A program made the translations under genes and the position numbers. Under the pieces are notes generated by a model that worked only from the letters and a program-made list of their open reading frames with translations, was not told the DNA's origin and did no database searches. 64,000 nucleotides of DNA from assembly GCA_001574975.1 (NCBI GenBank), contig KQ965801.1:167360-231359 (forward strand). The letters run 5' to 3'. The DNA comes from Gonapodya prolifera JEL478 (taxonomy: Eukaryota; Monoblepharomycota; Monoblepharidomycetes; Monoblepharidales; Gonapodyaceae). This document shows positions 10,587-58,039 of the stretch, one piece after another; position 1 is the first letter of the stretch, and every line of letters starts with the position of its first letter.

Positions 10587-11053
10587 TGTTGGAGTATATG
10601 TACAATGGTTTTTGTGATGGAACCATGACATGAAGGATTTTGGCTCAAAAAGCTGGTTGCAACCTCAAATGACAACAAATAGTTGTCAACTGTGTCTAAA
10701 ATAAAAGTGACTTGGGAACCAGTAATGTCATCATTGTCAGTGATTTCATCATGTCCTTTTGCAATGGAGGTACATGGGAGTGTCAAATGTTGGAAAGATA
10801 TTCCAAAGGTGAGAAGTGCTACACAACCTAGGTGAGCTGCATGAGCTTGTAATCTGCAGGAACGTGTGTGATCAAACATAGATAACAAGTTGTAATGTGC
10901 ATGGAACTCACCTGCAGGAATGTGATGCCAAACTTAGGGCACGTCCTGCAGGTGTGCACATCCAAACACGTGGCCACAGTAGTGGCCCAGCAGCTAATAC
11001 CCAACAGTCATACTACTCTATATATTCCATATTAGTGGATGTCAGTGTGACAA
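10587..11053 (+). repeat. LTR relic (Ty1/copia-like)
   Basis: A segment opening with TGTTGG and holding CCAACA at 11001-11006 has the inverted ends expected of an LTR of about 420 bases. A block of roughly 100 bases at 10953-11053 recurs at 52388-52488 with about nine tenths identity, which shows it is a dispersed repeat. The shared block runs beyond CCAACA to a second possible end, GTGTGACA at about 11045-11052, so the true boundary is open. No target duplication or coding part was found; it may be a solo LTR or a fragment. Confidence 0.5.
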
Positions 11054-12234
11054 GAAGGAAATCAATATCCTTTCTGAACAATTTAAGAAATCATGATTAT
11101 CTGGAGAATGCAAGCCCAAAACAGCTTTTTCCTCAAAGTTTTCCACCATTCACAAGAGTTGATCATTTTCAGGACAAATGAGAATGGTGTTGTGGAACTC
11201 TCATCTTCCTGGCAGTCATTAGTGAAGAAGAGTTTAAATTGTATTACAGTGCAGTAATGCAGTAGTTGCATTCTCTTTCTCTTTGGCTTTGCAGAGGGTT
11301 TAAACTAGAGTAAAAGTTGTTTGCCTGTCAAGCTCAAACTCCTGACAAGGATGAGAGATGAAAACAGTGTCTGCTTCTGCCAAAGAGGGAATACCAAGTG
11401 TTCAAGAGAAAAACTTGAGCCTGTACTACTGCTTGGACAAAATTTTCCAAAGTATGCAAACAAACCACTCCGTCCATCAACCTTGCTTGCCTCAGACACC
11501 TCAACCAGTCTCATACTGACTGCATTGCACATGCCACTTGGGTAGCTCACAATTATGGTCACACCCACTCCCATCACTACCAATGGTGAAAAGTAGAAGA
11601 AGTTTGACTTCAACATTTTGAGCTGTCCAATGTCAAAGATCAAAGAAGGATGCAAAAACTAGTGTTCATCTTATGTACTCCACCTCACTTACAGACTGGT
11701 TTCTGATTGTGGAGATTGAAAGATATGAATGGCAACATAATCATAATCACAAGTCCTATCACACTGCAGCATCATTCCCTCCTTGGTCTCCCATAGATGT
11801 CATGAACACTGCCTAAAATTTTCCATAATCCCCGTTGCAATACTACGTCGCCATTCCGTTTCAAAACGCCATGGGTTGACAAAGAAAATATAAACCGGGG
11901 GCTCCTTTCTGCCGCACTGTGGCAAAGCAACAGCTGACATTCCACATCCCGCCATCATCGATCGCGTTTCGAATCCGCGTCGCAGCCTCGCGCAAGTCGA
12001 CCACGTGACACACCCGAACTTGCAGCGACGCAATGACGACGCACCACGACCAGGAGGCGCACGGAGACGGCGCTGAGGTGTGTGGGCGAGGGGACAAAGG
12101 CGCTTTGCGTTGACACGCGGACGAGAGAGAGTTCGATTCCCGCTGAGTCGATTTGCACTGGCGTGATGTTTGCTGACGCTGACGGTTCTTCTGTGCGCTG
12201 ATCCCTTCCTCGGTGTGCTGAATTTCGCCGGACT
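11054..12234. other. Gene-free stretch and upstream region of the TB2/HVA22 gene
   Basis: AT-rich to about 11800 with ORFs on both strands near 11305-11655 that show no known domain, then GC-rich from about 11900. The last few hundred bases should carry the promoter of the gene at 12235. Confidence 0.4.
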
Positions 12235-22880: not shown

Positions 22881-22957
22881 TCTAAGAGGGCCTCTCCAAA
22901 TGGACAAACTCCCGGTGAATGCCGTCGAGTCGAGTACATATTTCTCACATAGCGACA
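22881..22957 (+). pseudogene. Second fragment resembling the MSV199 gene
   Basis: This stretch (atggacaaactcccggtgaa onward, through gagtacatatttctcacat) matches 23355-23418 of the MSV199 gene at about 85 percent, in the region encoding NGQTPGECRKLEYIFLTW. It lies only about 60 bases before the start of that gene, so it is a tandem remnant of a duplicate. Confidence 0.6.
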
Positions 22958-23019
22958 CCACCTAGTATTTGTGAGACGCACAATTTTTCGCTTGATTTTT
23001 TCTGTGCCATAATGTAACA

Positions 23020-23919
23020 ATGGAGGTTGTCAGGCACAATGTGGAAACGTCACCTCCAGCGTACAACTCCATTTACCCAGTGGAACCAACGCTTGAAGAG
23101 TTCACTTTGGAGCGACTTTCAGACGCAGAAAAGGAAATCTATGCAAAGTTGTATAGTGGACGCGCAGAGGCTGAAGCCTCATCTAGTAGTAACGGAGGAT
23201 CACGGCCTCCGGTGAAGTTTGAAGGTCTCTATCAAGTCGCCGGGTACACCCTGAAAGGGAACGCTAAGAGAGCTCTACTTGAACGCTCTGGTCTTCTCGA
23301 AAATGTTGACTATCAATGTTTCGTCATGAACGATGCAAACAATGACTTAGAGAGGGTCTCTGTAAATGGACAAACGCCCGGCGAATGCCGCAAGCTTGAG
23401 TACATATTTCTCACATGGCAAGCTGCACAAATATTTGTGATGCAAGCGCCCACTGCAGTTGGGGACATTGTGCGTAGGTTCTTTGTCCACATACTTGAAC
23501 TTCAAAAAGACTACGTAAGGGCACTAGGAGAGTGTCGGACAGCCCAAGCAATAGTAGATACCAAACACGAGCAACTATTGGCCAGTCACAGCAATGAGTC
23601 AGGCGTATACATAGGAGCAATTGGTTGGCACAGCGGACAGCAAGACGCGCCACAGGGGACACAGAACAAGTCCCTGTGGGGAGCACCAATGCGAGGGGCA
23701 CTACTTGCCGGATTGCAGTGGGCTCAGAACACGGTACGGGCGTGTGGGAAAAGTGGGCCGAGTGCCTTGCTGTCGACGAGGAGGCGGACACGCTCGGGAG
23801 ACCCAAGCCAAAGAGGCAAGCCGTGTAGTAGTAGCGATAGTCCCCGAAGAGACCAAACAACGAGACGTGTACGAAGACCGAAGTGCCCGAATAGAGGTTT
23901 GGGAGACAAGTTCTGTTGA
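23020..23919 (+). CDS. MSV199-domain protein, 5' part (gene interrupted by inverted repeat)
   Basis: The ORF opens with a Glu-rich N-terminus (VEPTLEEFTLERL), a Ser/Gly linker, and then a domain resembling MSV199: GYTLKGNAKRALLER, a VDYQCFV step, the Asn/Asp loop, LEYIFLTWQAAQIFVM and VRRFFVHILELQKDY. In large DNA viruses and some fungi this KilA-N-like DNA-associated domain stands before a GIY-YIG (T5orf172) nuclease domain. A GVYIGAIG phrase at about residue 205 may be the beginning of such a nuclease fold. After about 23640 the coding sense becomes unclear, and a 2.5-kb palindromic unit begins at 24062; the nuclease continues only at about 26590. The gene may be virus-derived, so it is described as a fossil: it appears broken by the insertion. 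Confidence 0.6.
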   Translation: MEVVRHNVETSPPAYNSIYPVEPTLEEFTLERLSDAEKEIYAKLYSGRAEAEASSSSNGGSRPPVKFEGLYQVAGYTLKGNAKRALLERSGLLENVDYQCFVMNDANNDLERVSVNGQTPGECRKLEYIFLTWQAAQIFVMQAPTAVGDIVRRFFVHILELQKDYVRALGECRTAQAIVDTKHEQLLASHSNESGVYIGAIGWHSGQQDAPQGTQNKSLWGAPMRGALLAGLQWAQNTVRACGKSGPSALLSTRRRTRSGDPSQRGKPCSSSDSPRRDQTTRRVRRPKCPNRGLGDKFC

Positions 23920-24061
23920 TCTCTGTTGGGCGACAGAAACTAACCGCACTGATAAAGGTCCTGAGCTCCTAAAGGACAAAACTAACCCCAAACGCCTAAA
24001 TTTCGGTCAATTTAATCCTCCAAAGCGGGAAGAGGGCTAAAGGTCGTGCATCTCGTGAGTC

Positions 24062-25191
24062 GGTGAGAGGCGGATAATCCCTTTTTGGCGTCCAAACACA
24101 GAGCCAGTGCCAGGACACACGTTGAGAAAGCCAGAGGCACGGCAACCATGCATCACTGATCGAGGTGACAAAGCAGTCATCTTTCACACACATTGGACAT
24201 CCAGTAGCCGAAAAGACGATGGTGCACTGATCCAGCGAGCTGGTTCCGACATCGCCGATCCTCCTGACCCAATCGTGGAATACAACTCGGTCTAGCAGAC
24301 TGAAAACGCATGCAAAGACATTGTTGCTGAGTTTCTCAAGCGATCCAAGCCCGGGAAGCAAAGGAATGCTGCTATCCAGCACCTCACGGACTCTACCAGA
24401 AAGAAACAGCATCAAGAACAAGCGCATACACACTCTTGAGCGACGTTCGATGTAGCGATGGCACATTTTGCCCTCGAAGTGCCCTTACGATGATGTGAAA
24501 CGATGTCGCACCACGCTGAATCAAGCCCCTCTACCAAGCAACCAGGAGCCACTAGGCCTCGCTCATGACATGCGCACATATTAACAACGCTCTGTGACGT
24601 ACCGCAGACGAAAAAGCTGTCCATATCTCCACAATTGAACAAGATGATGTTCCGGTGCACGCTACCATGATCGCAACACCAAACTAACGTTTTCTGGCCG
24701 CAACAAGGGCGCAAACTTCTCTTTCAAACAAATTTCGGTGCAAAAGCTGAGGTATCGCAGTGTCGCTCCGTTTTATCACTGAAGTTCGCATACTGAATCG
24801 GGTCATAAAAACAAGATCCAAACTCACGGACAAGAACAGTTCGGCCAGCGCCGACGCCCTCCAAGCTGCTGCTGCACTATGCCATAATGCTCGCAAAAGT
24901 TGAGCGCTGTAGGACACTGCCCCACCGAATGAGTACCCGACAACGCAAATTCATGCCATGGATGACCCCACTGGATTTCATGACACTCGCAAGCCCCGAA
25001 ACGCCATTCGCCCAGACAGATACAAGTAAGATCATGCGTGGACGATCTTTCTTTTTTTGAATTCAGTCATCGAGGTGTCCATCAACGACCCAGAATGCTG
25101 CGGTAGCTCAGAGACTGATTCAGTCAGTGGAGCTGCCAGCAGGAATGCTTTTCTATCTATAGGCTCAGAATATGTTGCTTTTTTGACAGTG
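24062..25191 (+). repeat. Left arm of a long inverted repeat (1,130 bases)
   Basis: Every position x in this arm pairs with 50641-x in the right arm (25450-26579). Protein translations of the two arms in mirrored frames are identical over more than 300 residues; the only differences noticed are three bases within 60 bases of the outer end. No transposase, target duplication or known family was recognised. Short ORFs in the arm (for example the one opening MSYSAQLLRALWH at 24917 on the minus strand) have no known domain. Confidence 0.95.
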
Positions 25192-25449
25192 TGCTGTGTT
25201 GGTGAAACGATATACACTTCGGTATTTTCAGCTTCGGCCGCGATTTTGCCATATTATTTGTATTGTCATAGAGGCGAGCTCTCTCGTTGAAACCAAGCGA
25301 AACCACGAGTTTTATGACATTACCACATCAAATTTTTTACATTACTTCCCTAGTCCCCCCGATGGTCTTCGGCGGGACGTACAAAATATTGTTGGCCAAG
25401 TCGCGACCGAAGCTCCGATTTTGGTGTATATCACGGGAACGACAGTCAT
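25192..25449. other. Spacer (loop) of the inverted repeat
   Basis: A unique stretch of 258 bases between the two arms. It would be the loop if the repeat folded as a hairpin in RNA or single-stranded DNA. No feature was recognised in it. Confidence 0.9.
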
Positions 25450-26579
25450 CACTGTCAAAAAAGCAACATATTCTGAGCCTATAGATAGAAAAGCATTCCT
25501 GCTGGCAGCTCCACTGACTGAATCAGTCTCTGAGCTACCGCAGCATTCTGGGTCGTTGATGGACACCTCGATGACTGAATTCAAAAAAAGAAAGATCGTC
25601 CACGCATGATCTTACTTGTATCTGTCTGGGCGAATGGCGTTTCGGGGCTTGCGAGTGTCATGAAATCCAGTGGGGTCATCCATGGCATGAATTTGCGTTG
25701 TCGGGTACTCATTCGGTGGGGCAGTGTCCTACAGCGCTCAACTTTTGCGAGCATTATGGCATAGTGCAGCAGCAGCTTGGAGGGCGTCGGCGCTGGCCGA
25801 ACTGTTCTTGTCCGTGAGTTTGGATCTTGTTTTTATGACCCGATTCAGTATGCGAACTTCAGTGATAAAACGGAGCGACACTGCGATACCTCAGCTTTTG
25901 CACCGAAATTTGTTTGAAAGAGAAGTTTGCGCCCTTGTTGCGGCCAGAAAACGTTAGTTTGGTGTTGCGATCATGGTAGCGTGCACCGGAACATCATCTT
26001 GTTCAATTGTGGAGATATGGACAGCTTTTTCGTCTGCGGTACGTCACAGAGCGTTGTTAATATGTGCGCATGTCATGAGCGAGGCCTAGTGGCTCCTGGT
26101 TGCTTGGTAGAGGGGCTTGATTCAGCGTGGTGCGACATCGTTTCACATCATCGTAAGGGCACTTCGAGGGCAAAATGTGCCATCGCTACATCGAACGTCG
26201 CTCAAGAGTGTGTATGCGCTTGTTCTTGATGCTGTTTCTTTCTGGTAGAGTCCGTGAGGTGCTGGATAGCAGCATTCCTTTGCTTCCCGGGCTTGGATCG
26301 CTTGAGAAACTCAGCAACAATGTCTTTGCATGCGTTTTCAGTCTGCTAGACCGAGTTGTATTCCACGATTGGGTCAGGAGGATCGGCGATGTCGGAACCA
26401 GCTCGCTGGATCAGTGCACCATCGTCTTTTCGGCTACTGGATGTCCAATGTGTGTGAAAGATGACTGCTTTGTCACCTCGATCAGTGATGCATGGTTGCC
26501 GTGCCTCTGGCTTTCTCAACGTGTGTCCTGGAAATGGCTCTATGTTTGGACGCCAAAAAGGGATTATCCGCCTCTCACC
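25450..26579 (-). repeat. Right arm of the long inverted repeat (1,130 bases)
   Basis: Reverse complement of 24062-25191, almost identical. The outer end at 26579 falls a few bases before the GIY-YIG coding part of the gene resumes. Mirrored ORFs lie at 25724-25957 and 25927-26229 on the plus strand. Confidence 0.95.
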
Positions 26580-26589
26580 AGGGAACAGG

Positions 26590-28240
26590 CATCTCCACAA
26601 CTAAGTCAGGAGACTATTACAAGTTCGGATACGCCAAACAGCTGCGCGAGCGCATTCGCGATCATCTAAGATCATTTTCTGTATTTCGTTTGGTACACTT
26701 TTAGCACTCACGGCAGTATGCAGCTGTGGAGAATGCATTCAAAACCGATCCAGTTGTTCGAAACTGCAGGACCACGTACATTGACAAGTTGGCCAACAAC
26801 CAAACGGAGATAGCTTGCTTTGATGACGAATTCACGTTCAAAGACGCAATTGTTTTGCTTGCGAAAAAAGCGAAATGTGAAGGCTCGTCTGACGAGAGTG
26901 CGGATGCATTGCAGTTCCAAGAACAGCTGACGGAACAGGAGCGATACAGGGCGGAGCAGGAAACATGGAAGGCTGAGCAGGAAACGCGGAAGACCGAGCA
27001 GGAAACGCGGAAGGTTGAGCAGGAAGTGCAGAGGACAGAGCAGCTGTGCCTTCGTCTTGAGCTTGCAAAATTGAAATTGTGCGACAGGATGACGGTTTCT
27101 GCCCCAAGAAGACAAATCCAAGCGTGGAGTGGAACTGTGGAAAGCACAGTAGATGATGTTGAAAACCCCAATCAAGGGGAAGATCGTGAAAAGGGAAAGG
27201 AGGTACGACTCGTGGCACCGAGCGAGCAACTGGCAATGGCAATTGCGCAGAAAGAGCTGAGGGACAAAGACATCGAACAGCTTGAGCGACTCAGAGAAAA
27301 CCAGCGATTATCCGACGACTCGGCTCACAGTCATAACATTGTTCCAGGAGACGGGGAAGCGCAGCGCGAGTCCACATCTCAGAGCGACAGCCATTTTGAA
27401 AACGTGCCTCCGAGTGACAGCGCGACTCAGAGTGAGCCCACGCGTCAGAGTGAAGCGGTGACCGTAACTCCCGCGAGCAACCCTATGCAGGCGACAGTAT
27501 CTCCTGCGAACCACCCCACGCAAGTGACCGTCACTCCTGCAAACAACACCACACCGGCGATCGCAACACCAGCGAACAACCCCGCGTCGGCGACCGTTAA
27601 TGCTCCAAACAACCCCACACCGGTGACAGTACCTCCTGCGAATAATCCCACATCGGCGACTGTACCGCATGCAAACCACACCACGCCAGTGATCGCAACG
27701 CCTGCAAACAATCCAACACCGGTGGCCGTTACCCCTGCAAACAACAACATGCCAGTGATCGGAACTCTTGCAAACAACCCCGGGTCGGTGACCGTTACAC
27801 CTCCAAACAACCCCACGCCCGCGAATAACACAGTGCCGGTGACCGCACAACAAGTTGCTCAAACCGCAGTTCCGACTGGGGTTAGTAACCCTAACCCTGG
27901 CGCGGTTGTGATCAGTGCCCCAGCGCGACCTAATCCCCGTCCTGCAGGGGATCCTTGGGCTTTGTTCTGGTCCGAATGTCTGGTTGCGTCTGCAAATGAG
28001 CGTGTCTCTGCGTCCTGCATTAGAAAAATGTATGTTCTCTGGCTCGAGGACAACGGGTACGCGGAAGGGTCTTACCCAGTTCACCACAAGAATTTTCACG
28101 ATAAAATGCAGAACCTAGGAGTTCGGGTCCAAAAGCTGCAGTTTCCAAACGCGTACCAAGACGGGGTAAGAGGATACGACTTCACTGACGCTGCCATCCA
28201 AATGTTTGGAGCTCTAATGAACCCACCAATCTCGCGTTAG
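26590..28240 (+). CDS. GIY-YIG (T5orf172) nuclease, coiled coil, Pro/Thr/Asn repeat and D5-like C-terminal domain
   Basis: Directly after the inverted repeat a GIY-YIG-like core appears (STTKSGDYYKFGYAKQLRER, then a VENAFKTDPVVRN helix and an EFTFKDAIVLLAKKAK end), with Tyr, Lys/Gly and Arg of the usual active-site pattern. A long ORF from 26726 carries on: a Glu/Gln/Arg coiled coil of short TEQETRK repeats (residues about 65-110), a charged linker, a block of roughly eleven 12-residue PANNPT repeats, and a compact C-terminal domain (FWSECLVAS, RKMYVLWLEDNGY, FHDKMQNLGV, GVRGYDFT). That last pattern resembles the winged-helix DNA-binding end of D5-like or phage-type primases of large DNA viruses. 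The combination suggests a mobile or viral-type DNA-processing protein. It forms the 3' part of the gene begun at 23020; as a possible viral relic it is treated as a fossil. Confidence 0.6.
27460..27850 (+). repeat. Coding minisatellite, about 36-base units
   Basis: About eleven in-frame units of 36 bases encode variants of VTPANNPTP. Units differ from one another at several positions, so the array is not freshly expanded. It forms a flexible Pro/Thr/Asn linker inside the GIY-YIG/D5-like protein. Confidence 0.85.
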
Positions 28241-28638: not shown

Positions 28639-29826
28639 ATGGACTGCCAAGAGATTGCAAACCGCGCAATACAAACCTACGGCTCTATCAACAGAGCTTT
28701 TGCGGAAGAGTGCGGTCGAGGCGCAATAGGCGTCGCGAAATACCTCCTCAACGAAGGTGCTGATATTGAATACGAAAACGGCACCCCGCTCCGGTTCGCA
28801 GCAAAAAATGGTCACGTCGACGTGGTATCTTTCCTCCTCCAGAGCGGAGGCCTCGTCGACGCAGAGAGCAACGCAGCAGCTCTCTGTCTCGCCGCGTACA
28901 ACGGTCGCGCGGACATTGTCTCTCTCCTCTTAAGTCACGGCGCAGACGTTCACGTGCGGGAGGTGGTGCAGCATGAACTTGCAGGTGCGTACCGCGCCAA
29001 TGGCCAGGTGGGCAAAGCAGCGGAGCTGCTTGAGAAGGTGGTGCCCATCAAAGCGCGCGTTCTGGCAGAGGACCACAGAGACCGGCTGGTGTCGCACCAT
29101 GCACTGGCCATTGCGTACCTGGACAATGGCCTGGTGGGCAAGGCAACAGAGCTGCTTGAGAAGGTTGTGGCCATTCACACACGAGTTCTGGCAGATGAGC
29201 ACCCTTCCCGGCTGCTGTCTCAGAGTGTACTTGGCAGACTATATTACAAACGTGGTGAGGGTGACAGAGCCGTCAAGTTACTGGAGAATGTTGTTGCTAT
29301 TCGGATGCACACCTCAGAGGAGGATCACCCTCACCGGCTCGCGTCCCAGCGTGAACTTGCAAATGCATATCGGACCTGTGGGCAGGTGGCCAAGGCAGTG
29401 TTGATTCTGGAGCATGTGGTTGCCATCACGGAGCGCACCATGTCTCAGGAACGCCAAGACGGTTTGAAGTCACAACAATCTCTTGCCATGGCATATGAGG
29501 CCAGTGGACAGCTGGAAAAGGCCTTGCCGCTTCTGGAGAATGTGGTTTTGATTGCGGCGAGTACAATGTCAGAGGATCATTTCTTGCGCGTGCAGTGGGA
29601 ACCGCAGCTATCCGCGATGCGTGAGAGACAGCACCAGAGCAGTGGAGGACCAGCCATGCCTCAGCAGACTGAACCAGCCATTCCAGTCGCGGCAGAGCCC
29701 TTGGCGATCAGAACGGCTCATCTATCTCCCGCACAGCTTGGTACCTTGGTGGACGCGGACAGCTCACGCAGCAGCTCCAAGAAGAGCGTGGGTCGTTTTG
29801 TGAAGGGATTGTTTAAGCATCGGTAG
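28639..29826 (+). CDS. Ankyrin-TPR protein (395 aa), NLR-like repeat module
   Basis: A single intact ORF. Residues 1-30 form a helical cap, residues 30-105 hold about three ankyrin repeats (GVAKYLLNEGADIE, AAKNGHVDVVSFLLQSGG, AAYNGRADIVSLLLSHGA), and residues 110-320 hold five 42-residue TPRs of the kinesin-light-chain/NB-ARC-linked kind (ELAxAYxxxGQxxKAxELLEKVVxI...EDHxxRLxSQ). The last 20 residues are basic and amphipathic (KKSVGRFVKGLFKHR). In fungi such TPR blocks normally follow an NB-ARC ATPase in NLR-type immune or incompatibility proteins. Here there is no ATPase; ankyrin repeats take its place. The decayed gene at 33686-37209 has the same TPRs and the same tail behind kinase and NB-ARC domains. 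The function is inferred to be protein binding or regulation in that system. No introns were needed to read it. Confidence 0.85.
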   Translation: MDCQEIANRAIQTYGSINRAFAEECGRGAIGVAKYLLNEGADIEYENGTPLRFAAKNGHVDVVSFLLQSGGLVDAESNAAALCLAAYNGRADIVSLLLSHGADVHVREVVQHELAGAYRANGQVGKAAELLEKVVPIKARVLAEDHRDRLVSHHALAIAYLDNGLVGKATELLEKVVAIHTRVLADEHPSRLLSQSVLGRLYYKRGEGDRAVKLLENVVAIRMHTSEEDHPHRLASQRELANAYRTCGQVAKAVLILEHVVAITERTMSQERQDGLKSQQSLAMAYEASGQLEKALPLLENVVLIAASTMSEDHFLRVQWEPQLSAMRERQHQSSGGPAMPQQTEPAIPVAAEPLAIRTAHLSPAQLGTLVDADSSRSSSKKSVGRFVKGLFKHR

Positions 29827-33685: not shown

Positions 33686-36600
33686 TTGCGTTCTACCTCT
33701 CAAACCTATTCCAAGCAATACACCACGGGGAACGCGCCTTTTCTTTCGCAAACTACGTGCCTCTCGTCTCTGATTCAACTCAAAAGGCCGAAATTGCAGG
33801 ACTGGGAGATCGATCCCGACCAAGTTATGTTCACCATCGGCCCCGAGTTCCGAATCGGGAGTGGAGGGTACGGGGATGTGTATCAGGGGACGTATTGCGG
33901 GATTAGAGTCGCTGTTAAGGTGTTCAGATTCACGAATGACGGCGCTATGGTGGAAGTGATTACTTCCGTATCCGTCACCTAATTTGCGGGACTCCACCGA
34001 AACCATCTCCACAAAAGACTTTCATGCGTAAAGTACGACGATGGCACCGGTTGAAATTTGAGCACGTTCTGCCTCTGTTTGGGGCCTGTACGAAGCCATT
34101 CCTCATAATGGTGTCGCCACTAATGCCAAATGGAACCATTTTGGACCATCTTCGGAAAAACAAGAACGCAAACCGCGTCCAATTGGTGCGTGCGTCCACT
34201 GAAAAGTTCAAATTTGTACCCCTGCTCTGCCTTTCTAATCAACTATTGTATACTTAGAGCTGAATACGATTGTCGAGAACTCGGCAAATGCGCCATTTGT
34301 CGATGAACATGGGAAGGGTGTTGTCGGGGACTTCGGAGTCCGACATATCGCTGAATTCGGAGAATACAGGTGGAACGCCCGAGCGGATGCTGGAACCTGA
34401 TCATCCCGATAAACCGCCGACGCACGCCAGTAAACACTACGGCGTCAGATATCTATTCGTTTGGGATCTTCGTCTACTTGGTGAGTTAAAAAACCATGAA
34501 TAGTACTTCGCGAACTGCGCCGTGCTCACCTCGGTTGTGCCTTCCATGAAATAGGTGTGGGTAAGAGATGGCAAGCCGTATGGTAACGTCTCCACAATCA
34601 GCGCACGGGACTCCCTCCTTGAGGAGATTGTCCGCAACCGCAAGCGACCTGACCTGAATAACCCACGCCTCACCGACATGCCACGGGAGCTCAACAATCT
34701 CATGCAACATTGCTGGGCGGCAGACCCTTGAGAGCGACCAAAATCGTTTCGAGACATCCTGAATGTTCTCGAAGTTCTCTTGCCAGCACACCAGCTGATT
34801 GTCAAGGGACCTGAATCGACGCCGTTGTCGTCATCAGGTGAGCTCGTCTTGCAATTCCGATCGGATAACTAAGCAACAGCTGACATGCTCCACATGATGA
34901 TCCGCCTCAGGTCCTGAGACTTTCTATGTTCTTTTTCCGAGAAACGAGCGATTTATAGGTCGCAGAGCGTTTCTTGAGAAGCTGGAGCGGGACCTTTTTG
35001 GGGACGGCAAATGGCGCAAAAGGAGCGCTCATGGGGCTTGGCGGAGTGCGCTCGAGCTCACGTACAGGATAAAGGAACGCCACCCTGACTTTTCGGTGCT
35101 TTGGTTGCCCACGATGAGCGTCGCCAGCTTCACCCAAGCTTGTGACCAAGTCGCTACCGTGTTGGGTGTCATGATTGTGGGGGAGACAAGCGGGAAGACC
35201 CTGAGGAGGTTCTGAAGAGACACCTGGAGAACAGTGGCAGACGACACTTCTTGATAGTGGACAATGCCGACGACATTGAAGTTCTGGCAGGAAGTGGGTC
35301 GGAGAAGGGGGTCAAGGAGCACGTCCCAAAAAGTGAGCGGGGTCGCATCGTGTTCACGACACGTTCAAATAAGGCTGCGACGGTTGTGGCGCAAAACAAG
35401 GTGCTGGCGTTGGATGCAATGGATGAGACGGAGGCCTTGGACTTTTTGCCGAGATGACCGCCAGAATCTCTTGGAAGATCGAACACTTGCAACAGAGCTT
35501 CTTCAGGAGCTCACGTTTTTTCCTCTTGCAATTGCGCAAGCAGTGGCGTACCTCAACAGCAACCTCAATGACTCAGCACAACGTTGTCTTGGATAGTTGA
35601 GGGACAGAGATCGGGATCGCTTTGACCTTCTGAGCGAGGATTTTGATGACGAGACCCGCTATGAAGGAGCGCAAAACGCCGTTGGAACTACGCGGCTTGT
35701 TTCCTTTGAGCAAATACAACGTGATGATCCCGCAGCTGCTGAAATCCTGTCATTGTGGCGTGCATTGACTGCAAAGCCATTCCGTACTCTATATTCCCAC
35801 ATGTTGCTCTTGGTGGAGTTGCGATGGACAAAGCCATCGGTACTCTCGTTGGCTACTCCTTTTTTACCCCACGATCTGACGGCAAGCTTTATGATATCCA
35901 CAGTCTGGTGCAGCATGCAGCTTCACGTCGGTGGCTCAAAACCCAAGGTACCATCAGTGCGAAGACCATTTCTGCCATAATACACCTCGAAACCGTGCAA
36001 TTCTGACGATTGGGAAAATCGTCCCACATGGTGCTCATACCTCACTCACGTGGAAATAGTCCTGGAAACTAATGAGTAATGGTCAGGTGGACAAGGCGGT
36101 GGCAATATTGGAGAAGGTGATGGCCATCACGTCTCTTACGCTGAAAAGAGGATGACCCATCCCGGCTGGCGACATTTCACCCACTTGCTCTTGTATACCA
36201 GGCCGATGGGCAGGTCGACAAGGCGTTTGAAATTTTAGAGAAGGTGGTGGCCGTAGAGGCGCGCATCTTTTCACAGCAGGACCCATTGCTGTTGGTGTCA
36301 CAGCATGCGCTTGCTATTGTGTACCATGACAATGGTCAGGTGGACAAAGCAGTTCGGATCTTAGAGAAACTGGTGGCCATTGAGGCGATTTCTCTGGCGG
36401 AGAATCACCTAGATAGACTTGCGTCACTGCACGCCTTGTGCATGGCGTATGTGGACATTGGCCAGGTGGGCGAGGGTATGGAGCTTTTGGAGAAGGTGGT
36501 GGCCATTTGGACAACCATCGTGCCAGAAGAGCACCCATCTCGTCTGGCTTCTCAATTCGTGCTCTCTTGCGCGTACCGTGAACACGGAGACGTGGACAAG

Positions 36601-37209
36601 GCCCTGTCACTTTTGCTCCATGTCGTTGTGATGTATTCTCGTTTCATGGCAGAGGAGCACCCATACCTGCTCGCATCGCAGCGTGAGCTTGCAAATACCT
36701 ACTGGGTAAGTGCGCACGTAGACAAGGCGATGGAGCTCCTGCACCATGTGGTCGCAATCACGACACGCACCATGGCGGAGGGGCACCAAGCGCGTTTGAA
36801 GTCACAGCAGTCATTTGCCATGATATATGAGGTCATCGGACAGCGTGAAAAGGCCTTACCCCTTCTAGAACATGTGGTATCTGTCGCGACACGAACAATG
36901 TCAGAAGAGCATTTCTTGCTGGTGCGGTGGGAGCAACAGCTAGCCGCAATGCGTGAACGATCAGGCCTGAGTGGTGCAACAGTTGACGCCCCACTGCGGA
37001 AGCTGGTATCTAAGGTTCCAGTCGCCGCAGAGCCCTCGGTTGGGACTGCATCAACCACACATGGGATTGGCCTGTCGGAATTGCAGGGTTCGCGCAATGG
37101 TCCCATAAAGAGTGTGGGTCGCTTTGTGAAGGGTTTGTTCAAACGTACGAAATATAGGGAGACCGTGTATGTTGTTTTTGGTTCGACATCCCGGCACTGC
37201 AATCAGTGA
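33686..37209 (+). pseudogene. Decayed kinase / NB-ARC / TPR (NLR-type) gene
   Basis: Parts follow in the right order on the plus strand. (1) A TKL-type kinase: GSGGYGDVYQGTYCGIRVAV (Lys of beta-3 present) near 33855, the LPLFGAC stretch near 34070, a weak DFG area near 34330, and the last helix MQHCWAADP near 34700, where a stop codon (34729-34731) interrupts ADP-ERP. (2) NB-ARC from about 34920: FIGRRAFLEKLERDLFG, a Walker A region where GLGGV is no longer followed by GKT and the frame changes near 35040, Walker B LIVDNADD (35255), IVFTTRSNKAA, FFPLAIAQAVAYLN, and GYSFFTPRSDG in another frame near 35850. (3) TPRs, about seven units from about 36070, open from 36244 to the end. The tail KSVGRFVKGLFK equals that of the ankyrin-TPR gene. 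Fungal proteins of this plan sense non-self and trigger a response; this copy has lost the ATP loop and is not functional as a whole. The 3' ORF (321 aa) could still be expressed. Confidence 0.8.
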
Positions 37210-47269: not shown

Positions 47270-48530
47270 TCTCAAAATGGCCATCAACGCAGAAAATATG
47301 GCAAAGCCTTTTGAAAGCACTGAGGACGCTCAAGGAAAGTATGCTATTTACACGATACTCTCCAAAGTTCTTGGAATTGATGCCAAGAAGATTTGTGACA
47401 AAGTCATTACGAAAAGAAAGCAGAAAGCAAATTCCGGAATTGGCAAAATACCTTGATGCAAACAACGATGTGCTCGACTCCATATCATGTTTTGGAATTC
47501 ATGGGTCTTTTGAACAAGCATTCGGTTTATTCCATTCCAATTGATGCCATTGATAAATATGATGGGTTGAATGGCATCAGCGAGAATGAAAATGAAAGGG
47601 AAAGTGTGCAGGATAGCAAAGATGGAGAAGAGGAAGAGATTGACAAGGAAGTTTCAAAGGATAAAGGAAATGGTCCTGAAAACCGGAATATTTCAGCTTT
47701 TGGGGAACGAAATGGTTCTGGATCTCATCACTCAAACATTATTGGAAGTAGTGAACAAACCAGTTTGATCACAACTGAAATGAATCTGGAAATTTTTGAG
47801 AAGAATGTTTCTTAACAATCTTTTGTGCGGAAGTTTGAGGACCCACGGCATCTTTGGAACAGGATGGTCAGAAATTGGTTGCAATTGGACATGTGGTAAA
47901 CAACTCAATAGTCTAGACTTCTCAGAAAGGCGGGCGAGAGCCAAGGTCGATTTGTATCATCTTTTTCAACAATTATATTGAAAAATCCGCGGAGATTCAT
48001 CACTTGCTGTAGAAGTCATGTATCACACTCAGGCTTTTCCGAACACCGTCATGGCTTAGATAGCACATTCGAATGCAGGTGGATCTTATCAGTCCGGTCA
48101 CAGCAACGTCAATCTTCATCTTCAAGTAGTGCTCTGATTCATCCATCTTCTTTACAAACACATTCACATCTCCCTGCAAAGATATTGGAGCATTTTGTTT
48201 ACATTGCGATGAATCGTGAGCTTGGACTCATCAAAATTGGGGAAACTACGATTCTCTCAAAGAGAAACACTACTTTGCAAGGATTGGAAGAAATCAGTGT
48301 TTCTATTCTGTTTGCAATTCGCATCAATGACAAATTTCCCACTGCAAAAGCCAAAACTATTGAAAGCATGCTACATGAGACTTTTCGGCCATTTATCTCA
48401 AAGAAAACAAAAGATTATCTTGATTTTCATCAACTAAGAAAAAAGTTGGACATAACAGGGAATGATGAACTGGCCATGCAAAAAGTTGCGTGGTATCTCT
48501 TTCAACATTTGCTTCCGAGAACAACATGAT
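47270..48530 (+). pseudogene. MSV199 / GIY-YIG (T5orf172) relic, copy 2
   Basis: An MSV199-like start (KYAIYTILSKVLGIDAKKI), an acidic linker, a shared stretch (cggagattcatcacttgctg at 47988, matching 43282) and a nuclease segment with VYIAMNRELGLIKIGETTIL, an Arg further on, and KAKTIESMLHETFRPFI. The ORF at 47978-48529 holds the nuclease end complete. The copy as a whole is broken in several places. It is a sister of copy 1 at 43030-44213, with the mini-exon gene between them. Confidence 0.65.
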
Positions 48531-48550
48531 GAAATATTGCAATCTCAATG

Positions 48551-49830
48551 AGAGATCTGACTAAGAAATATTTGGAAAAACTGAAACATGGTGGGGCTTC
48601 TGATGAGGACATGGGAAAGGAAACGTTATGGATTGTGAGTTTTGTTTAGTTTTCTTTATTTTTAGCAAGTCTGTTTATAATGTTTCTTGAAGCTTTTTGA
48701 CATTGCGCGGGGACTGAAATACCTCCATAAAAACAACATCCTCCATTTGGACGTGAAACCAGATAACGCTCTGGTTGACAAACTACATCGGACAATGGTT
48801 ACAGACTTTGGCACTTGCCTTATCCGCGAATTGGAGGGAAAAGATCATGGTGTGGGGACAAAGTGTTACATGGCTCCTGAACGTCTCAGAGGAGAGGCTC
48901 CAACTCGTAAAGTGGATGTCTTTGCTTTGGAATAAGTCTGTTTGAGGTGAGCAATAAAAACGTGCTTATCCATCTACCATGTTTGACATGAAATTCAAAT
49001 TTGGTTTCTGTGCGACCCTTACAACAACCTGGATGACTTGGTGGAAATTGAAGCGCAAAACAAACGACCTTAACTTCCAACATCCTGCAATATACTGGAT
49101 GAAATCAAAAGGTTGATGATTTGGTTGCTGGGATTCAGAACCAAACGAGCGTCCTGATTTTGATGAAATCGTGGAGATTCTCTCCAAATACGTCAAGTGA
49201 GTGCTTTATGTGTATTTCTGATAATACTGGTTTTGAAACGCGGTTTTCTCAACCAAGATCTGAAATTCATCGCCCAAAACCGCCAAATATTGAAAATATC
49301 CTTCCAACCATTCCAAATGATGCTCTGGAGCTTTTTTCGCTTGCGGAAAAATACTTTGAGGGTTCTGATAAAATTCCGCAAGATTTCACAAGTTCATTCC
49401 ACTTACTCTTGAGAGCTGCAAAGTTCCAGCATCCAAAAGCTCTTTTACAAATTGGGCAATTTTACATGCAAGGTTTGGGAGGTGTTTTAAAGAACTTAGT
49501 GGAAGCTGCATTGTGGTGGACCAAGGCTGCAGAGCAAGGGTATGCCAATGCACAGTACAATCTTGGAGTTTGCTATAACAATGGAGGAGGGATGGAAAAG
49601 GACCAGAAAATGGCGGAGTTTTGGAACACCAAGGCCGCGGAGCAAGGTTTTGCTGAAGCATAGAAAAATCTTAAATGTTTCTGCGCCAAAGGAAAAGGAG
49701 TGGAAAGGAATGATAAAGTGCATTCCATTGATGTATGCAGTATTTGCAGTAGGCACTCGGCACGTTTCAAATGAAACCGCTGATGTCCTTTTGAAGCATT
49801 TTCAGAAAATTTTCTCGCAGTGTTGAAATA
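48551..49830 (+). pseudogene. Protein kinase with Sel1 repeats (broken)
   Basis: Short exons give a kinase C-lobe: ARGLKYLHKNNILHLDVKPDN (catalytic loop with Asp, Lys, Asn), VTDFGTC (DFG), GTKCYMAPERL (APE) and VDVFAL near 48925, where the expected FGISLFE continues one base out of frame. NERPDFDEIVEILSKYV ends the kinase near 49195. After an intron come Sel1 repeats: HPKALLQIGQFYMQG, AALWWTKAAEQGYANAQYNLGV and AEFWNTKAAEQG, then a TAG where the repeat should continue (about 49660). The N-lobe with its Gly loop was not found; exon 48551-48638 carries only a helical lead-in. Kinase-Sel1 fusions are common in fungi as signalling proteins; this copy is probably a pseudogene. Confidence 0.65.
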
Positions 49831-51609: not shown

Positions 51610-52389
51610 CTAAGCATTGACCGGGCGGAGGTACGTCTCAAGTGGGGGCGGTGCAATTCCAAATAAGTCCACTACTTGACTACCATAAAGACAAGTGTGA
51701 CAGTTTGTAAGAAGAACTGCCACACTGTAGAATAATGCCACAGGCTGAAGGAGGAATTTCTGGTTCTTTTTAAAGTCCACCCATGCAAAGAGAGTCACAA
51801 TCTTACTGAAACTCCATTCCACAGAAATCCTGACAGCACTCATATCAGCATTGTGCTGCCTCTGAGCCTGGGTGAGGCGTGCTGAANGAAATGGGGAGAG
51901 GAGATGGATGTTCTTGCCATAGGCAGGGTCCCCATACAGCTGCACAGGAGTTCCATTGGCAGACCAAGCTGTAAGGCAAAAGTTAAAGAGAATACATCAA
52001 ATAGCATCATATGAACATGCACCATGATTGTGAAGGATGTCAGGGAGTGTACTCTCTCTGTAGACTCTTGCATCATGCCGTTTCCCATTAAAAGGTCCAT
52101 GCAGTCGCAGGATTCCATCTGCTATAAGCACTCCCTGGTACTTAATAGCATGAACGCACTTCCAGCCATTGTACCACAGCTCCTGGCGCCTGCTTGGTCG
52201 GGCAATGGGTCGCAATGTACCATCTACGAACCCAAAAACTGACGAAAGTGGTGCCCCGGCGGCATGGACTGCTGCACAGCAGGAATCCAAGTAGTCCGGA
52301 GTCATCAGGTCCTTGTCCTACTCCATAGCATGTCGAAAGTGGCCGTAGATGTGCTCCGCGACCTCCAAAGCAATGCGCGAAATTTGGTG
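51610..52389 (-). pseudogene. H1 DDE transposase, 5' end missing
   Basis: The minus strand reads the C-terminal two thirds of a PIF/Harbinger DDE_Tnp_4 nuclease: FVDGTLRPIARPSR (first Asp), GVLIADGILRLHGPFNGKRHD, QLYGDPAYGKN (second Asp), VEWSFSKI (Glu) and NCHTCLYGSQVVDLF. All three acidic residues are present. The N-terminal helix-turn-helix part is cut away at the junction with the LTR scrap. One unresolved base lies near 51896. Confidence 0.7.
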
Positions 52390-52488
52390 CACATCTAAAC
52401 CCGCGGCCACAGTAGTGGCACAGCAGCTAATACCCAACACTCATACTACACTATATACTCCACGTTAGTGGATGTCAGTGTGACAAGA
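52390..52488 (+). repeat. LTR fragment at a recombinant junction
   Basis: About 100 bases match 10953-11053 at about nine tenths identity. The fragment joins the truncated H1 transposase on the left to H2 sequence on the right (agaatctcacaatctg onward equals the H3 interior). It is a scrap of a copia-like LTR with no coding part. Confidence 0.7.
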
Positions 52489-52558
52489 ATCTCACAATCT
52501 GCAGCGCAATCGAAGAGATTGGATTACAGAGGTCAGTTCTACTGTCCCGTGTGAAGTT

Positions 52559-52774
52559 TTACCTCTCCCTTGTCACTGTGTTGACACTGCCATCGCGGCC
52601 AATTTTGAATCCCTTTTGTTGAAGTGCCCTCCTGATTTCACCCCAGGAGCTGGTCAAAACCCATTTGAGGAAGGACAGGGCATGTTGGCGCAGCGCGGGA
52701 TAGGGAATCCAGGCGTGTACAGAGGACCGCTTGCCCCAATGTGTTGATGCAATGATTTGTGGCCGATTCACCAT
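52559..52774 (-). CDS. Small third ORF of H2 (71 aa)
   Basis: The minus-strand ORF encodes a basic protein (MVNRPQIIASTHWGKRSSV, then EIRRALQQKGFKIGRDGSVN) with helix-turn-helix-like spacing. The same protein, with changes that mostly keep its character, is found in H3 at 57520-57734. It points away from the partner ORF across a gap of about 30 bases. No named family is recognised; a DNA-binding or regulatory role is inferred. Confidence 0.5.
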   Translation of the reverse strand: MVNRPQIIASTHWGKRSSVHAWIPYPALRQHALSFLKWVLTSSWGEIRRALQQKGFKIGRDGSVNTVTRER

Positions 52775-52806
52775 TTTTTAACGCGGAATCTGTTTGAATA
52801 CATGCT

Positions 52807-53783
52807 TTGAATACAGATGTTACGAATACACCAGCTGGTGCTGGCCGTGTCGCGCAGTTTCGGAAGCTAATAGGGAAAGTCAGGGAACCAACTGGAATGT
52901 GGCGCGATTTGCATACAGAAGCAATTGCCGTCACGCTGTACTGGAAAGGAACGCAGGAGACAATCAAGGAAAAACAGACGAGGATTGTGGCAACCTTGGA
53001 GGCTATTGGGGTGGAATGGGTGGGGGTCAAGTGGAAACCCATTGACACTGCCCTGAATTGGGCACTGACATGGGTAAAAGAGGACCGCAAGAACCACCAG
53101 AGGCTGACGGGGGTGGACAAAGACATTACGGAGGTGCAGCAATTACTGGAGGAGTGGTACACGGTGGTGAGTGTTCGGTTTTGCAGGATTCGGGAATCGT
53201 ATGCAAAGTAACTGCGTGATTAGAATACATGTAGTATCAGGACGAAGAGAATGAGAAAGCGGATCAGAAACGTGGGCGGGAGGCCTCGGAACGGGATGAG
53301 CAGTACGTTCAAGGTGAGGGAATCAATTGGCATTCTGATTTTCAATTGATTTGACTGAACGCTCTATGGAATCGTCAAATCACATCAACAGACCTCCTCT
53401 CCCAATCATTGGAGAGGTGCAGGACATAGAGGCGCTGAAGGGAAGTGACAGACGGTGCGGAATCGGATGGGGAGAGCTCAAGCGTGACAACTCCCATCCC
53501 GGCCAAGCGGCGCAAGCCAAGGATGGCGGACACTGGTGAATGTCAGGTGGTGGACGTACTGAAGGGTTTAATGGATGCGGAGAGCAAAAGAGGGGCAAAC
53601 ACGGATCGATTTTGGGAGGAGGACGTCGGGCTCAGGAAGGAGTTCCTGGAAGTTGAATGGATGAAGGCGCAACTGGAACGGGATTGTGTCGAGCGTGAAG
53701 AGAAGGACAGGGAAGCTGCATGGAGAAAGGATGAAGCAATAGTAGCTTTACTAACTAAACTAGTTGCAGATGGACATAAATGA
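52807..53783 (+). CDS. H2 accessory protein (transposase partner)
   Basis: Exon 1 (52807-53165) reads VAQFRKLIGKVREPTGMWRD, LHTEAIAVTLYWKGTQETI, VEWVGVKWKPIDTALNWAL and VQQLLEEWYTVV, a helical trihelix/Myb-like domain. Introns follow near 53165 and 53313. The 3' exon (to the stop at 53781-53783) carries an EFLEVEWMKAQLERD coiled coil and a TKLVADGHK end. Introns are short. The reading frame can be followed through the gene, so H2's partner gene may be whole. Confidence 0.6.
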
Positions 53784-53839
53784 CGTTTCTTCTTAGTTTG
53801 TATGATCAAATGCAATTAAATTTATCTAAATTGGCTTTA

Positions 53840-55082
53840 CTACTGGTTTGCTACATGTAAGTAGGTTTCAAGTGGAGGTGGATCAACTCTTAATAGGTCC
53901 ACCACCTGACTGCCATAAATACATGTGTGGCAGTTTGTAAGCAGTAGTGCCACCTTATAATAAAGTCCCAGTGGCTGCAAGAGCAGTTTCTTGTTCTTCT
54001 TAAAGTCAACCCATGCAAATAAAGCTAACACCTTCCCAAAACACCACTCAACAGCAATCCTAACTGCACTCATGTCCGCGTTGTGCATCCTTTGAGCATC
54101 TGTAATCCTTGCAGAGCAAACCGGGGCAATTATAAGGGGGTTCCTGCCGTAGGCAGGGTCCCCATACAATTGGATGCGCCAACCATCTGGGAGACGTGCT
54201 GCAGCACGTATTGGTATGCAACCACCGCGATTCATAATAAAATATCACTCACCATGGTTTATAAGTGTTTCCAACAGACCACTCTCCCAAAAAACCCGCG
54301 AATCGTGCCGTTTCCTGTTGTAAGGCCCTGAAATCTGCATGATTCCGTCCATGATTAGCACCCCTTGAAACTTGATGGCATGTGTTCGCTTCCATCCAAT
54401 GTACCAAAGCTCCTGACGGCAAATTAGACGTGCGATGGGGCACACAGTACCATCAATGAACCCAAAAATAGTCTGGAGCGGAGCGCCAGTGGCATGAACA
54501 GCTGCACAACACTGCTCCAGATAGTCGGGCGTCATTAACTGGTCATCTCATGCCATAATGTGTCCAAATTGCTCCGCTATTCCAATTGCCGTCTCGTGGA
54601 CGATCCGCGAAACTTGCGAGTGGTCCCACCCAAAGAAGATTGCGATCTCCCCAAGACGCCCAGTGTACGATAGGTGGTTGAGGAGCATGCACAACGCTGT
54701 TGTTCCGGGAAGCTTGAGCTGATTGGTGGTTGTGATGATATCGGGGATGTGGAGGGCGGCGCAAAGGCAGTCCACATCCACCCAACTAATCTGCCACAGA
54801 ACAAGTTAGATTAACAAAATAACTGTCTCAGAGCATCGATCCTTACCAGAAATGATAAAAATAATCCGCATCGCTCAATGATTCCAGGTCCAGCGGTTCC
54901 AATGTGAGACTCCGGACTGATGGCGGCGGCAAGACCACCAAGAGGCCAAGGACAGCTGCGATACGGACAGCAAGTGATGCGTCCTCCTCAGCTGTATCTG
55001 CTTCCACTGCCATGGGATGGTATCGCAGCATGTTGGTCTGGTATTGAGGGACGGCACACGGTACATTTCTTATGATGCGCAA
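53840..55082 (-). CDS. H2 PIF/Harbinger transposase
   Basis: On the minus strand four coding blocks follow: 55082-54843 (LDLESLSDADYFYHF), 54790-54548 (helix-turn-helix: TTTNQLKLPGTTALCMLL, GRLGEIAIFFGWDHSQVSRI), 54535-54245 (IFGFIDGTVCPIAR, first Asp) and 54235-53840 (YGDPAYGRN, second Asp; VEWCFGKVLALFAW, Glu). All catalytic acids are present. A stop at the end of the second block (FGHIMA) replaces AWGDQ seen in H3, so the copy may be inactive unless an intron lies there. Confidence 0.75.
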
Positions 55083-55146
55083 ACTAAAAGGTACTCAATA
55101 ATTCCTCATGTGCCTCAGTAAACTTTATGGTGAAGTTTTTTTTTTT

Positions 55147-55183
55147 TGCGCAAACTCTCTATTAGAGAGTTTCTGTTACCGTA
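55147..55183. repeat. Abutting terminal repeats of H2 and H3
   Basis: The H2 right terminal repeat (55147-55159) and the H3 left terminal sequence (GAGAGTTTCTGTTACCGTA from 55165) face each other with only TATTA between them, which includes a TTA target. Two related elements are thus inserted head to head at one site. Confidence 0.75.
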
Positions 55184-55290
55184 AAGTTTACTGTGGCACA
55201 CAAGAAATTACTAAGTATATTTAAGTTTGTGCAAGATTAAAAATATACCGTGCGCCATCCCTCATTACTGTACCAATATGATGCAAGGCA

Positions 55291-56463
55291 ATGGAAACAG
55301 ATACAGCTGAGGATGGCGCGTCACTTGCTGTCCGTATATCAGCTGTTCTCAGCCTCTTGATGGTCTCGGCGCCACCCTCATGCCGGAGTCTCACTTTGGA
55401 ACCACTGGACATGGAATTGTTGACTGATGCCGATTATTTTTATCATTTCCGGTATGGATCAATGCTCTGTGAGAGTTATTCTGTTCATCTAACTTGTTAT
55501 GTGGCAGATTCAGTCGGGTGTGATGTGGACCGCCTTTGCGCTGCCCTCCACATCTCTGATATTGTCACAACCACCAATTGCCTCAAGATTCCCGGAACAA
55601 CAGCACTGTGCATGCTCCTCATGTGCCTATTGTACCCTGGGCGTCTTGGGTACATCGCAATCTTCTTTGGAAGGGACCGCTCGCAAGTTTCGTGGATTGT
55701 CTACGAGACGGCAATTGGAATTGCGGAGCGATTTGGACACATTATGGCATGGGGTGATCAGTTATTGACGCCGGAGTATCTTGAGCGGTGTTGTGCGGCC
55801 GTTCATGCTGCCGGCGCACCACTCCAGACTATTTTCAGATTCATTGATGGCACTGTGCGCCCCATCGTGCGTCCAATTTGTTATCAGGACCTTTGGTACA
55901 ATGGATGGAAGCAAACGCACACTATGAAGTACCAAGGGGTGCTGATTGCGGACGGAATCATGCAGATTTCAGGGCTGTACAATGGGAAACGGCATGATGC
56001 GCAGATATTTTGGGAGAGTGGCCTGTTGGAAACACTTCTAAATCATGGTGAGTGATATTTTATCATGAATTGCAGTGCTTGTATTCCAATATGCACTGCA
56101 GCACATCTCCCAGAAAGTTGGCGCATCCAATTGTATGGGGACCCCGCCTACGGCCGGAACCCCTTTAAAATTGCCCCGTTTTGCTCTGCAAGGATTATGG
56201 CCATTCAGGCAATTCATAATGCAGACATGAGTGCTGTAAGGATTGCTATTGAGTGGTGTTTTGGGAAGGTTTTGGCTTTGTTTGCATGGGTTGGCTTTAA
56301 AAAGAACCAGAAGCTGCTCTTGCAGCCTCTAGGACTTTATTATAAGGTTGCAGTGCTGCTTACAAACTGCCATACATGTCTTCATGGTAGTCAGGTGGTG
56401 GACCTTTTCAGAGTTGATCCACTGCCGCTTGAAACCTACCTACGCATAGCAAATCAGCAGTAA
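55291..56463 (+). CDS. H3 PIF/Harbinger transposase
   Basis: Exon 1 (55291-56050) and exon 2 (from about 56065 to 56463) encode an almost whole transposase of about 385 aa. The N-terminal helix-turn-helix (TTTNCLKIPGTTALCMLL, RDRSQVSWIVYETAIGI) is followed by the nuclease: FIDGTVRPIVRP (Asp), GLYNGKRHDAQ, LYGDPAYGRN (Asp), IEWCFGKVLALFAW (Glu) and NCHTCLHGSQVVDL. The first 55 residues, TEDGAS to DADYFYHF, are as in H2. An ATG 5' of 55291 is possible. It is the best preserved transposase of the three. Confidence 0.85.
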
Positions 56464-56516
56464 AGTTATTTTGATGTAATTAAATAGGATTTGTTTATAC
56501 AAACTAAGACCAAATG

Positions 56517-57535
56517 TCATTTGCGTCCATCTGCAACTAGTTTAGTTAATAGTGCTACTATTGCTTCATCTTTCCTCCGCACAGTGTCCTTGTCCTTCTC
56601 TTCACGTTCGAAACGGTCCTGTTCCAGTTGCGCCTTCATCCATTCCACTTCCAGGAACTCCTTCCAAAGTCTACATCCTCCTCTGAAAATTGATCCGCAT
56701 TTGTCCCTCTTTGGCTCTCTGCATCCGTTAAACCCTTCAATATGTCCATTACCTGGCTTTCGCCTATGTCCACCATCCTTGGCACTGCTTGGCCGGGATG
56801 GGGGTTGTCGCACTTGAGCTCTCCCCGTCTGATTCCGCCCCGTCCGTAGGTATCCTTTGACGCCTCTGCGTCCTGCACCTCTCCAATGATTGAGAGAGGA
56901 GGTCTGTCCAAGTGATTTGAAGAATCCATGAAGTGTTCAGTCAAATCAATCAAAAATTGGAATGTCACCTGATTCACTCACCTTGAACATACTGCTCATC
57001 CCGTTCCAATGCCTCCCGCCCATGTTTCTAATCCACTTTCTTGTTCTCTTTGTCCTGATACTGCATGTATGCCAATCACGCAGTTAGTTTGCATACGATT
57101 CCCAAATCCCGCAAACCCGAACACTCACCACGTCAAATCACCCTCCAGTAATTGCTGCACCTCTGTAACATCTTTATCCACCCCTGCCAGCCTCTTGTGT
57201 TTCTCACAGTCCTCTTTTACCCATGTCAGTGCCCGATTCAGGGCAGTGTCAATGGGTTTCTACTTGACCCCCACCCATTCCACCCCAACAGCCTCCAAGT
57301 TTGCCACAATCCTCGTCTGCTTTTCCTTGATTGTCTCCTGCGTTCCTTTCCAGTACAGCGTGACGGCAATTGCTTCTGTATGCAAATCGCGCCACATTCC
57401 AGTTGGTTCCCTGACTTTCCCTATTAGCTTCCGAAACTGCGCGACACGGCCAGCACCAGCTGGTGTATTCGTAACATCTGTATTAAAAGCATGTATTCGA
57501 ACAGATTCCGCTTTAAAAAATGGTGAATCGGCCAC
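56517..57535 (-). pseudogene. H3 accessory protein (transposase partner), degenerate
   Basis: On the minus strand this repeats the H2 partner: VAQFRKLIGKVREPTGMWRD, YWKGTQETIKEKQTRIVAN, then a stop in place of Trp in VK-KPIDTAL (near 57260), and the exons around 56977-56636 and 56813-56517 with the EWMKAQLEQDRFEREEKD coiled coil and TKLVADGRK end. The stop and a frame change near 56680 suggest it no longer makes a full protein. Confidence 0.6.
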
Positions 57536-57734
57536 AAATCATTGCATCAACACATTGGGGCAAGCGGTCCTCTGTACACGCCTGGATTCCCTATCCCGTG
57601 CTGAGCCAGCACGCCCTGTCCTTGCTCAAATGGGTTCTGACCAGCTCCTGGTGGAAATTGGGAGGGCAGTTCGACGAAAGGGATTTGAAATCAGCCGCAA
57701 TGGCAGTGTCAACACAGCGACGAGGGAGAGGTAA
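57520..57734 (+). CDS. Small third ORF of H3
   Basis: Same small basic protein as in H2 (MVNRPQIIASTHWGKRSSV start, EIGRAVRRKGFEISRNGSVN end), with one frame change near 57655 between the two halves. Its presence in two elements that differ elsewhere supports it as a real element gene. Family unknown. Confidence 0.5.
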
Positions 57735-58039
57735 AACTTCACACGGGACGGTAGAACTGACCTCTGTAATCCATTCTCTTCGATTGCGCCGCAGATTGTG
57801 AGATTCTGCATAAAATCAACAAGAAAATTGTCGAGGATATTGAATCGCCTGTAGGGCCATCCCAGGGTATATTTTCACCGTCAAATTTACTCGGGACTGC
57901 GCCACAGAGGTTCTAGAGTAAAATTTACGGTAAATTTTGGCTTTGCGCAAACTCTCCATTGAAATTTGATTTTCCAGCACCAGAGGTTACAGGATTTTCT
58001 TTGAAATATTTTTATTTTATAGTCGGATCAAATTATAGA

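Follow-up and report, generated by a model that had tools for sequence, protein, structure and literature searches.

The palindrome at 24062-26579 raises the question of how two stretches of DNA, each more than a kilobase long, came to be almost perfect mirror images of one another in a single window, the window being the whole stretch of 64,000 nucleotides that was analysed. A repeat search of the window placed inverted arms of 1,130 nt each at 24062-25191 and 25450-26579, with a spacer of 258 nt between them. Since the repeat search rounds the complementarity of the arms to 100%, the mismatches were taken from a base-by-base comparison of position x with position 50641-x, in which only three of the 1,130 positions (24099, 24107 and 24109) were unequal and no difference at all occurred over the inner 1,082 bases. 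When small gaps were allowed, BLAST prolonged the arms to 25200 and 25438. Chance cannot explain arms of such length and likeness. The arm coordinates, the 258-base loop and the three mismatches at the outer edge, as given in an earlier sequence-only reading of this DNA, were all correct by the repeat search and the base-by-base check, and the palindrome is a real structure that was well described there. No inverted likeness between the flanks was evident in an alignment of the sequences beyond 24062 and 26579, where the best local score was 16, a figure that stands without a null distribution. The features discussed below are collected in the table.

Table. Positions of the palindrome, its parts and its neighbours in the 64-kb window
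Feature	Position	Strand	Remarks
Left arm	24062..25191	+	1,130 bases; mirrors the right arm without mismatch over 24110-25191
Right arm	25450..26579	-	Reverse complement of the left arm; mismatches at 26532, 26534 and 26542
Loop	25192..25449	.	258 bases; 237 if the gapped BLAST extension is counted
Faded mirror homology, left half	25230..25262	+	Local alignment score 31
Faded mirror homology, right half	25380..25414	-	Local alignment with the left half; arm-anchored test
7-bp direct repeat, left copy	24048..24054	+	7 bp beyond the left arm; may be a target duplication
7-bp direct repeat, right copy	26589..26595	+	9 bp outside the right arm
Left ORF ('MSV199' of the sequence-only reading)	23020..23919	+	Weak match to a phage anti-repressor family
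Right frame	26489..28240	+	First 91 bases within the right arm; far end weakly Pox_D5/primase-tail-like

The loop is not a random spacer. In a test that left out everything joined to the arms by BLAST and that, like all our tests of the palindromes (the loop, the mismatch cluster and the patch in a second palindrome), was picked after the data had been seen, the two halves of the loop compared as mirror images gave a score of 31, which was reached by none of 5,000 dinucleotide shuffles and none of 5,000 random window pairs, the top score in both nulls being 28. A test anchored at the arm ends, with 75 bases per side, scored 61. Single-base shuffles averaged 30.3 (sd 4.6) and went no higher than 57 in 10,000 runs, and the best of 10,000 random window pairs scored 55. 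Furthermore, the loop alone folded at -85.6 kcal/mol, compared with -62.8 (sd 4.8, minimum -79.7) in 300 single-base shuffles; the fold of 25150-25490 gave a z of -16.5, which is no evidence on the loop because that segment includes arm sequence. The mirror homology and the fold of the loop taken together indicate that the palindrome runs on into the loop in a faded form. Because this faded homology continues the arms, the symmetry thus falls abruptly, from 1,082 identical bases to a diverged margin.

The identical 1,082-base tract is therefore bounded on the inside by a margin that is homologous and clearly more diverged, and on the outside by the mismatch cluster, in which the three unequal positions are confined to an 11-base span near the outer edge (a placement as tight arose in 0.017% of random draws). 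The diverged mirror margin argues for an older repeat that was later re-copied and is not expected from a fresh fold-back. We propose that the palindrome is a genuine and old interrupted inverted duplication, the arms of which were made identical again by arm-to-arm copying, and which most probably lacks a function of its own; on balance we hold this history to be, if only just, probable. The older inverted repeat may first have arisen by an accident of replication or repair rather than by transposition. One arm would then have been copied onto the other, either by arm-to-arm gene conversion or by template switching during replication, the latter acting between the arms of the imperfect palindrome. 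Such copying, rather than a recent re-duplication, presumably restored the identity of the arms, though arms just as alike would follow if an inverted repeat that had already faded was recently duplicated again. Among the three origins offered by the sequence-only reading, namely a fold-back transposon, a source of hairpin RNA and the footprint of a palindromic duplication, the last agrees best with the data, to which we add that the duplication appears to be old and the arms to have been homogenised again. The preserved border of the identical tract is the main point of interest of the locus, and that interest is moderate.

Correction of quasipalindromes by template switching is known from tracts of tens of bases, whereas the identical tract found here extends over a kilobase. 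The excerpts available of three sources (PMC8981503, PMC7202029, PMC3820800) describe both processes, gene conversion acting between the arms of palindromes and template switching acting at imperfect inverted repeats. The palindrome most likely belongs to a known kind, inverted duplications kept nearly identical by copying between the arms, and most likely reflects ordinary palindrome biology. Mammalian sex-chromosome palindromes, in the part of the source concerned with them, resemble it in that their arms are kept above 99% identical by inter-arm copying (PMC8981503). However, palindromes of that kind are large, those of mice exceeding 10 kb and carrying gene families according to an excerpt of another account (PMC5997626), whereas the arms here are 1.1 kb long and look non-coding.

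The same window holds a second palindrome of 5.3 kb at 52486-57807, the arms of which are 85.7% identical over 2,648 aligned columns. Within it, the patch at 52696-52945 showed three differences in 250 columns, as few as in none of 5,000 permutations that take sites as independent (minimum 12), though selection on some feature may underlie the patch. Together, this patch and the arms at 24062-26579 thus point to locally erased divergence in two palindromes within 64 kb, and the abrupt border between identical and faded sequence in the one and the patched arms of the other make this stretch a small natural test bed for inter-arm copying. The right arm of the second palindrome includes a DDE_Tnp_4 piece above Pfam's cut-off (55291-56052), and further DDE_Tnp_4 pieces, one per arm, missed it narrowly or by a clear margin (53843-54235 and 56065-56460). 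A third and more diverged copy of the transposase adjoins the palindrome at 51613-52305. Over 666 columns its identity was 66.1% to one arm and 64.7% to the other, that between the arms being 84.4%, a comparison that covers another stretch than 52696-52945 and leaves the patch itself without an outgroup. The second palindrome has one copy of a 103-base direct repeat (10954-11056 and 52387-52489, 91% identical) at its left edge.

The near-identity of the arms at 24062-26579 would also follow from a recent inverted duplication made in one step, by template switching or closed-fork replication, with no later copying between the arms, and a model of interstitial inverted amplification, which begins at short interrupted inverted repeats, has been tested in yeast according to an excerpt of one study (PMC4689423). 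Such an event is quite unlikely here, because a faded mirror in the loop is unexpected if single-copy DNA was freshly duplicated. The near-complete identity of the arms would suit an assembly or library artefact as well, in which one arm would be no more than the other falsely folded back. However, an artefact would not predict the diverged mirror margin in the 258-base loop, the clustering of the mismatches or the differing left and right flanks, and the second palindrome in the same window is clearly diverged. The faded loop argues against an assembly fold-back in particular, and we judge this explanation very unlikely; structures of this kind should not be thrown out as assembly errors. A DNA transposon of the fold-back type, inserted here with inverted ends of great length and a target duplication of 7 bp, would account for the short loop between long inverted arms and for the 7-bp direct repeat, which lies beyond both arm ends at distances of 7 bp and 9 bp. 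Because 570 of 50,000 random pairs of 20-base window stretches shared at least seven bases, this repeat, noticed after the fact, is only suggestive, at about the 1% level. Transposon ends normally extend up to the target duplication, but the arms end seven and nine bases before the repeat, those bases are not inverted copies of one another, and terminal inverted repeats do not reach the ends of the element if the 7-bp repeat marks them. Foldback and Mutator-like elements form families with dispersed copies and with target duplications abutting their ends, whereas the present palindrome is known once and its direct repeat does not abut the arms. They resemble it in the short middle between long inverted arms, as the excerpts of two sources describe them (PMC4079207, PMC3169594). 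BLAST up to E 1e-5 found no copies of the inverted arms elsewhere in the 64-kb window, phage records gave no match, exact arm-end patterns were absent from viral contigs and prokaryote genomes, and the arm pieces scanned gave no Pfam match. Since none of the collections searched for relatives is based on eukaryote genomes, those misses carry little weight. For the proposal of a fold-back transposon, the 7-bp direct repeat near both edges is thus suggestive, the inverted arms end before that repeat, and the searches described turned up a single copy; we consider it unlikely, though to be taken seriously.

Two further readings place the palindrome in a transcript. The left 7-bp copy is immediately followed by GTGAGT at 24055, and the right one is immediately preceded by a CAG that ends at 26588, positions that would make the palindrome, nearly end to end, a candidate intron. 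It would then be a mobile, introner-like element of 2.5 kb with its own splice signals and a 7-bp target duplication, putting a double-stranded stem of 1.1 kb in each transcript of the host gene, which we regard as highly unlikely. The donor at 24055 would, on our own reading, require an extra upstream intron and a 12-base exon, and GTRAGT occurs 46 times on the given strand of the window. An in-frame GT-AG pair was dropped as an argument for an intron, as 36 combinations pass: the frame between the flanking ORFs is kept by 36 GT-AG pairs from 14 donors, and the frame thus lends the intron reading no support. In the excerpts of two sources, introners and symmetrical fungal stwintrons are intron-like insertions, some of which have inverted ends and target duplications of 3-9 bp (PMC9860276, PMC8469720). 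Introner families have median lengths of 30-654 nt in the part of the first source that treats them (PMC9860276), and the inverted ends in fungi are given there and in the second source as 45-55 nt, fungal introners being said, within those excerpts, to be without target duplications (PMC9860276, PMC8469720). In contrast, the palindrome is 2.5 kb long, is known once and is a candidate intron by sequence alone. We give the lowest probability to the reading in which the palindrome supplies RNA interference with long hairpin RNA, perhaps within the transcript of the flanking gene. The whole unit folded as RNA at -2,478.6 kcal/mol with 96% of its bases paired, so that a transcript across it would fold almost fully and on this prediction could physically feed RNA interference as a hairpin, but such folding is common to any long palindrome, and the 64-kb window has no other match to the arm. 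Moreover, hairpins at supported fungal loci are mostly short, and the natural action of long hairpin RNAs needs exploration, according to an excerpt of one account (PMC9757828), which would bear on the palindrome if its host is a fungus. Splicing or dicing of its RNA would give the palindrome greater importance than it has as the old, re-copied duplication that we propose.

The palindrome had been read as splitting an MSV199/GIY-YIG gene. ORFs do lie on both of its sides, but no MSV199 or GIY-YIG model was among the Pfam matches up to E 5 for 23020-23634, 26489-26701 and 26705-28237, pieces that were scanned apart and whose shortness weakens this test. Pfam contains an MSV199 model. By eye, a stretch to the right of the palindrome looked like a GIY-YIG core. 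The right frame consists of 26489-26704 and 26705-28240, with a single stop at 26702-26704 between them. Matches of the left ORF were weak (DUF3234, E 0.053; an anti-repressor PHROG, E 0.041), as were those of the right frame (DUF874, E 0.0089, under the cut-off; Pox_D5, E 0.12; a primase PHROG, E 0.016), the Pox_D5 and primase PHROG matches lying at its far right end. A fragment similar to the left ORF stands just upstream of it at 22884-22982 (E 5e-08 within the window). Part of the left ORF had no match up to E 5 among PDB sequences, and alignment-free structure prediction gave mean pLDDT values of 45.5 and 40.1, too poor for use. A minisatellite with a 66-base period, 4.8 copies and 72% matches lies at 27501-27816 in the long ORF to the right of the palindrome.

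The arms themselves appear non-coding. No Pfam family was found up to E 5 in the scanned pieces of the arms and loop, which were a subset of the arm frames, and no PHROG up to E 1 for 25187-25606. The codon-usage scores of six arm frames all lay within the intergenic range under a model trained on seven ORF pieces of the window. A head-to-head gene pair, prompted by similar peptides in the mirror margins, was rejected, being unsupported by the frame comparison and by codon usage: the favoured frame pairing of the margins scored 26, which was reached in 325 of 10,000 shuffles, and an alternative pairing scored 43, a figure obtained without shuffles. No viral-contig relatives were confirmed for the left ORF, the right ORF, a loop ORF or the ankyrin-TPR ORF in a search from single proteins, which detects close relatives only.

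The window as a whole has a G+C content of 49.5%, and scans of it for tRNAs and, at gathering thresholds, against Rfam were both empty. Pfam matches above the cut-offs, among the subset of window ORFs that was scanned, comprised ankyrin, TPR and Sel1 repeats, a short-chain dehydrogenase and DDE_Tnp_4 transposases. Its frames, short and broken, point to a eukaryotic source that has introns and genes in decay. Two TPR genes about 6.4 kb apart, one of which also has ankyrin repeats (28639-29826) and the other of which lies at 36244-37209, have a 307-base stretch in common at 76% identity. At 47978-49660, a T5orf172-like piece (47978-48526; E 0.0033, 18.3 bits against a cut-off of 20) is followed by a putative protein kinase, read as such by eye, and by Sel1 repeats at 49121-49660.
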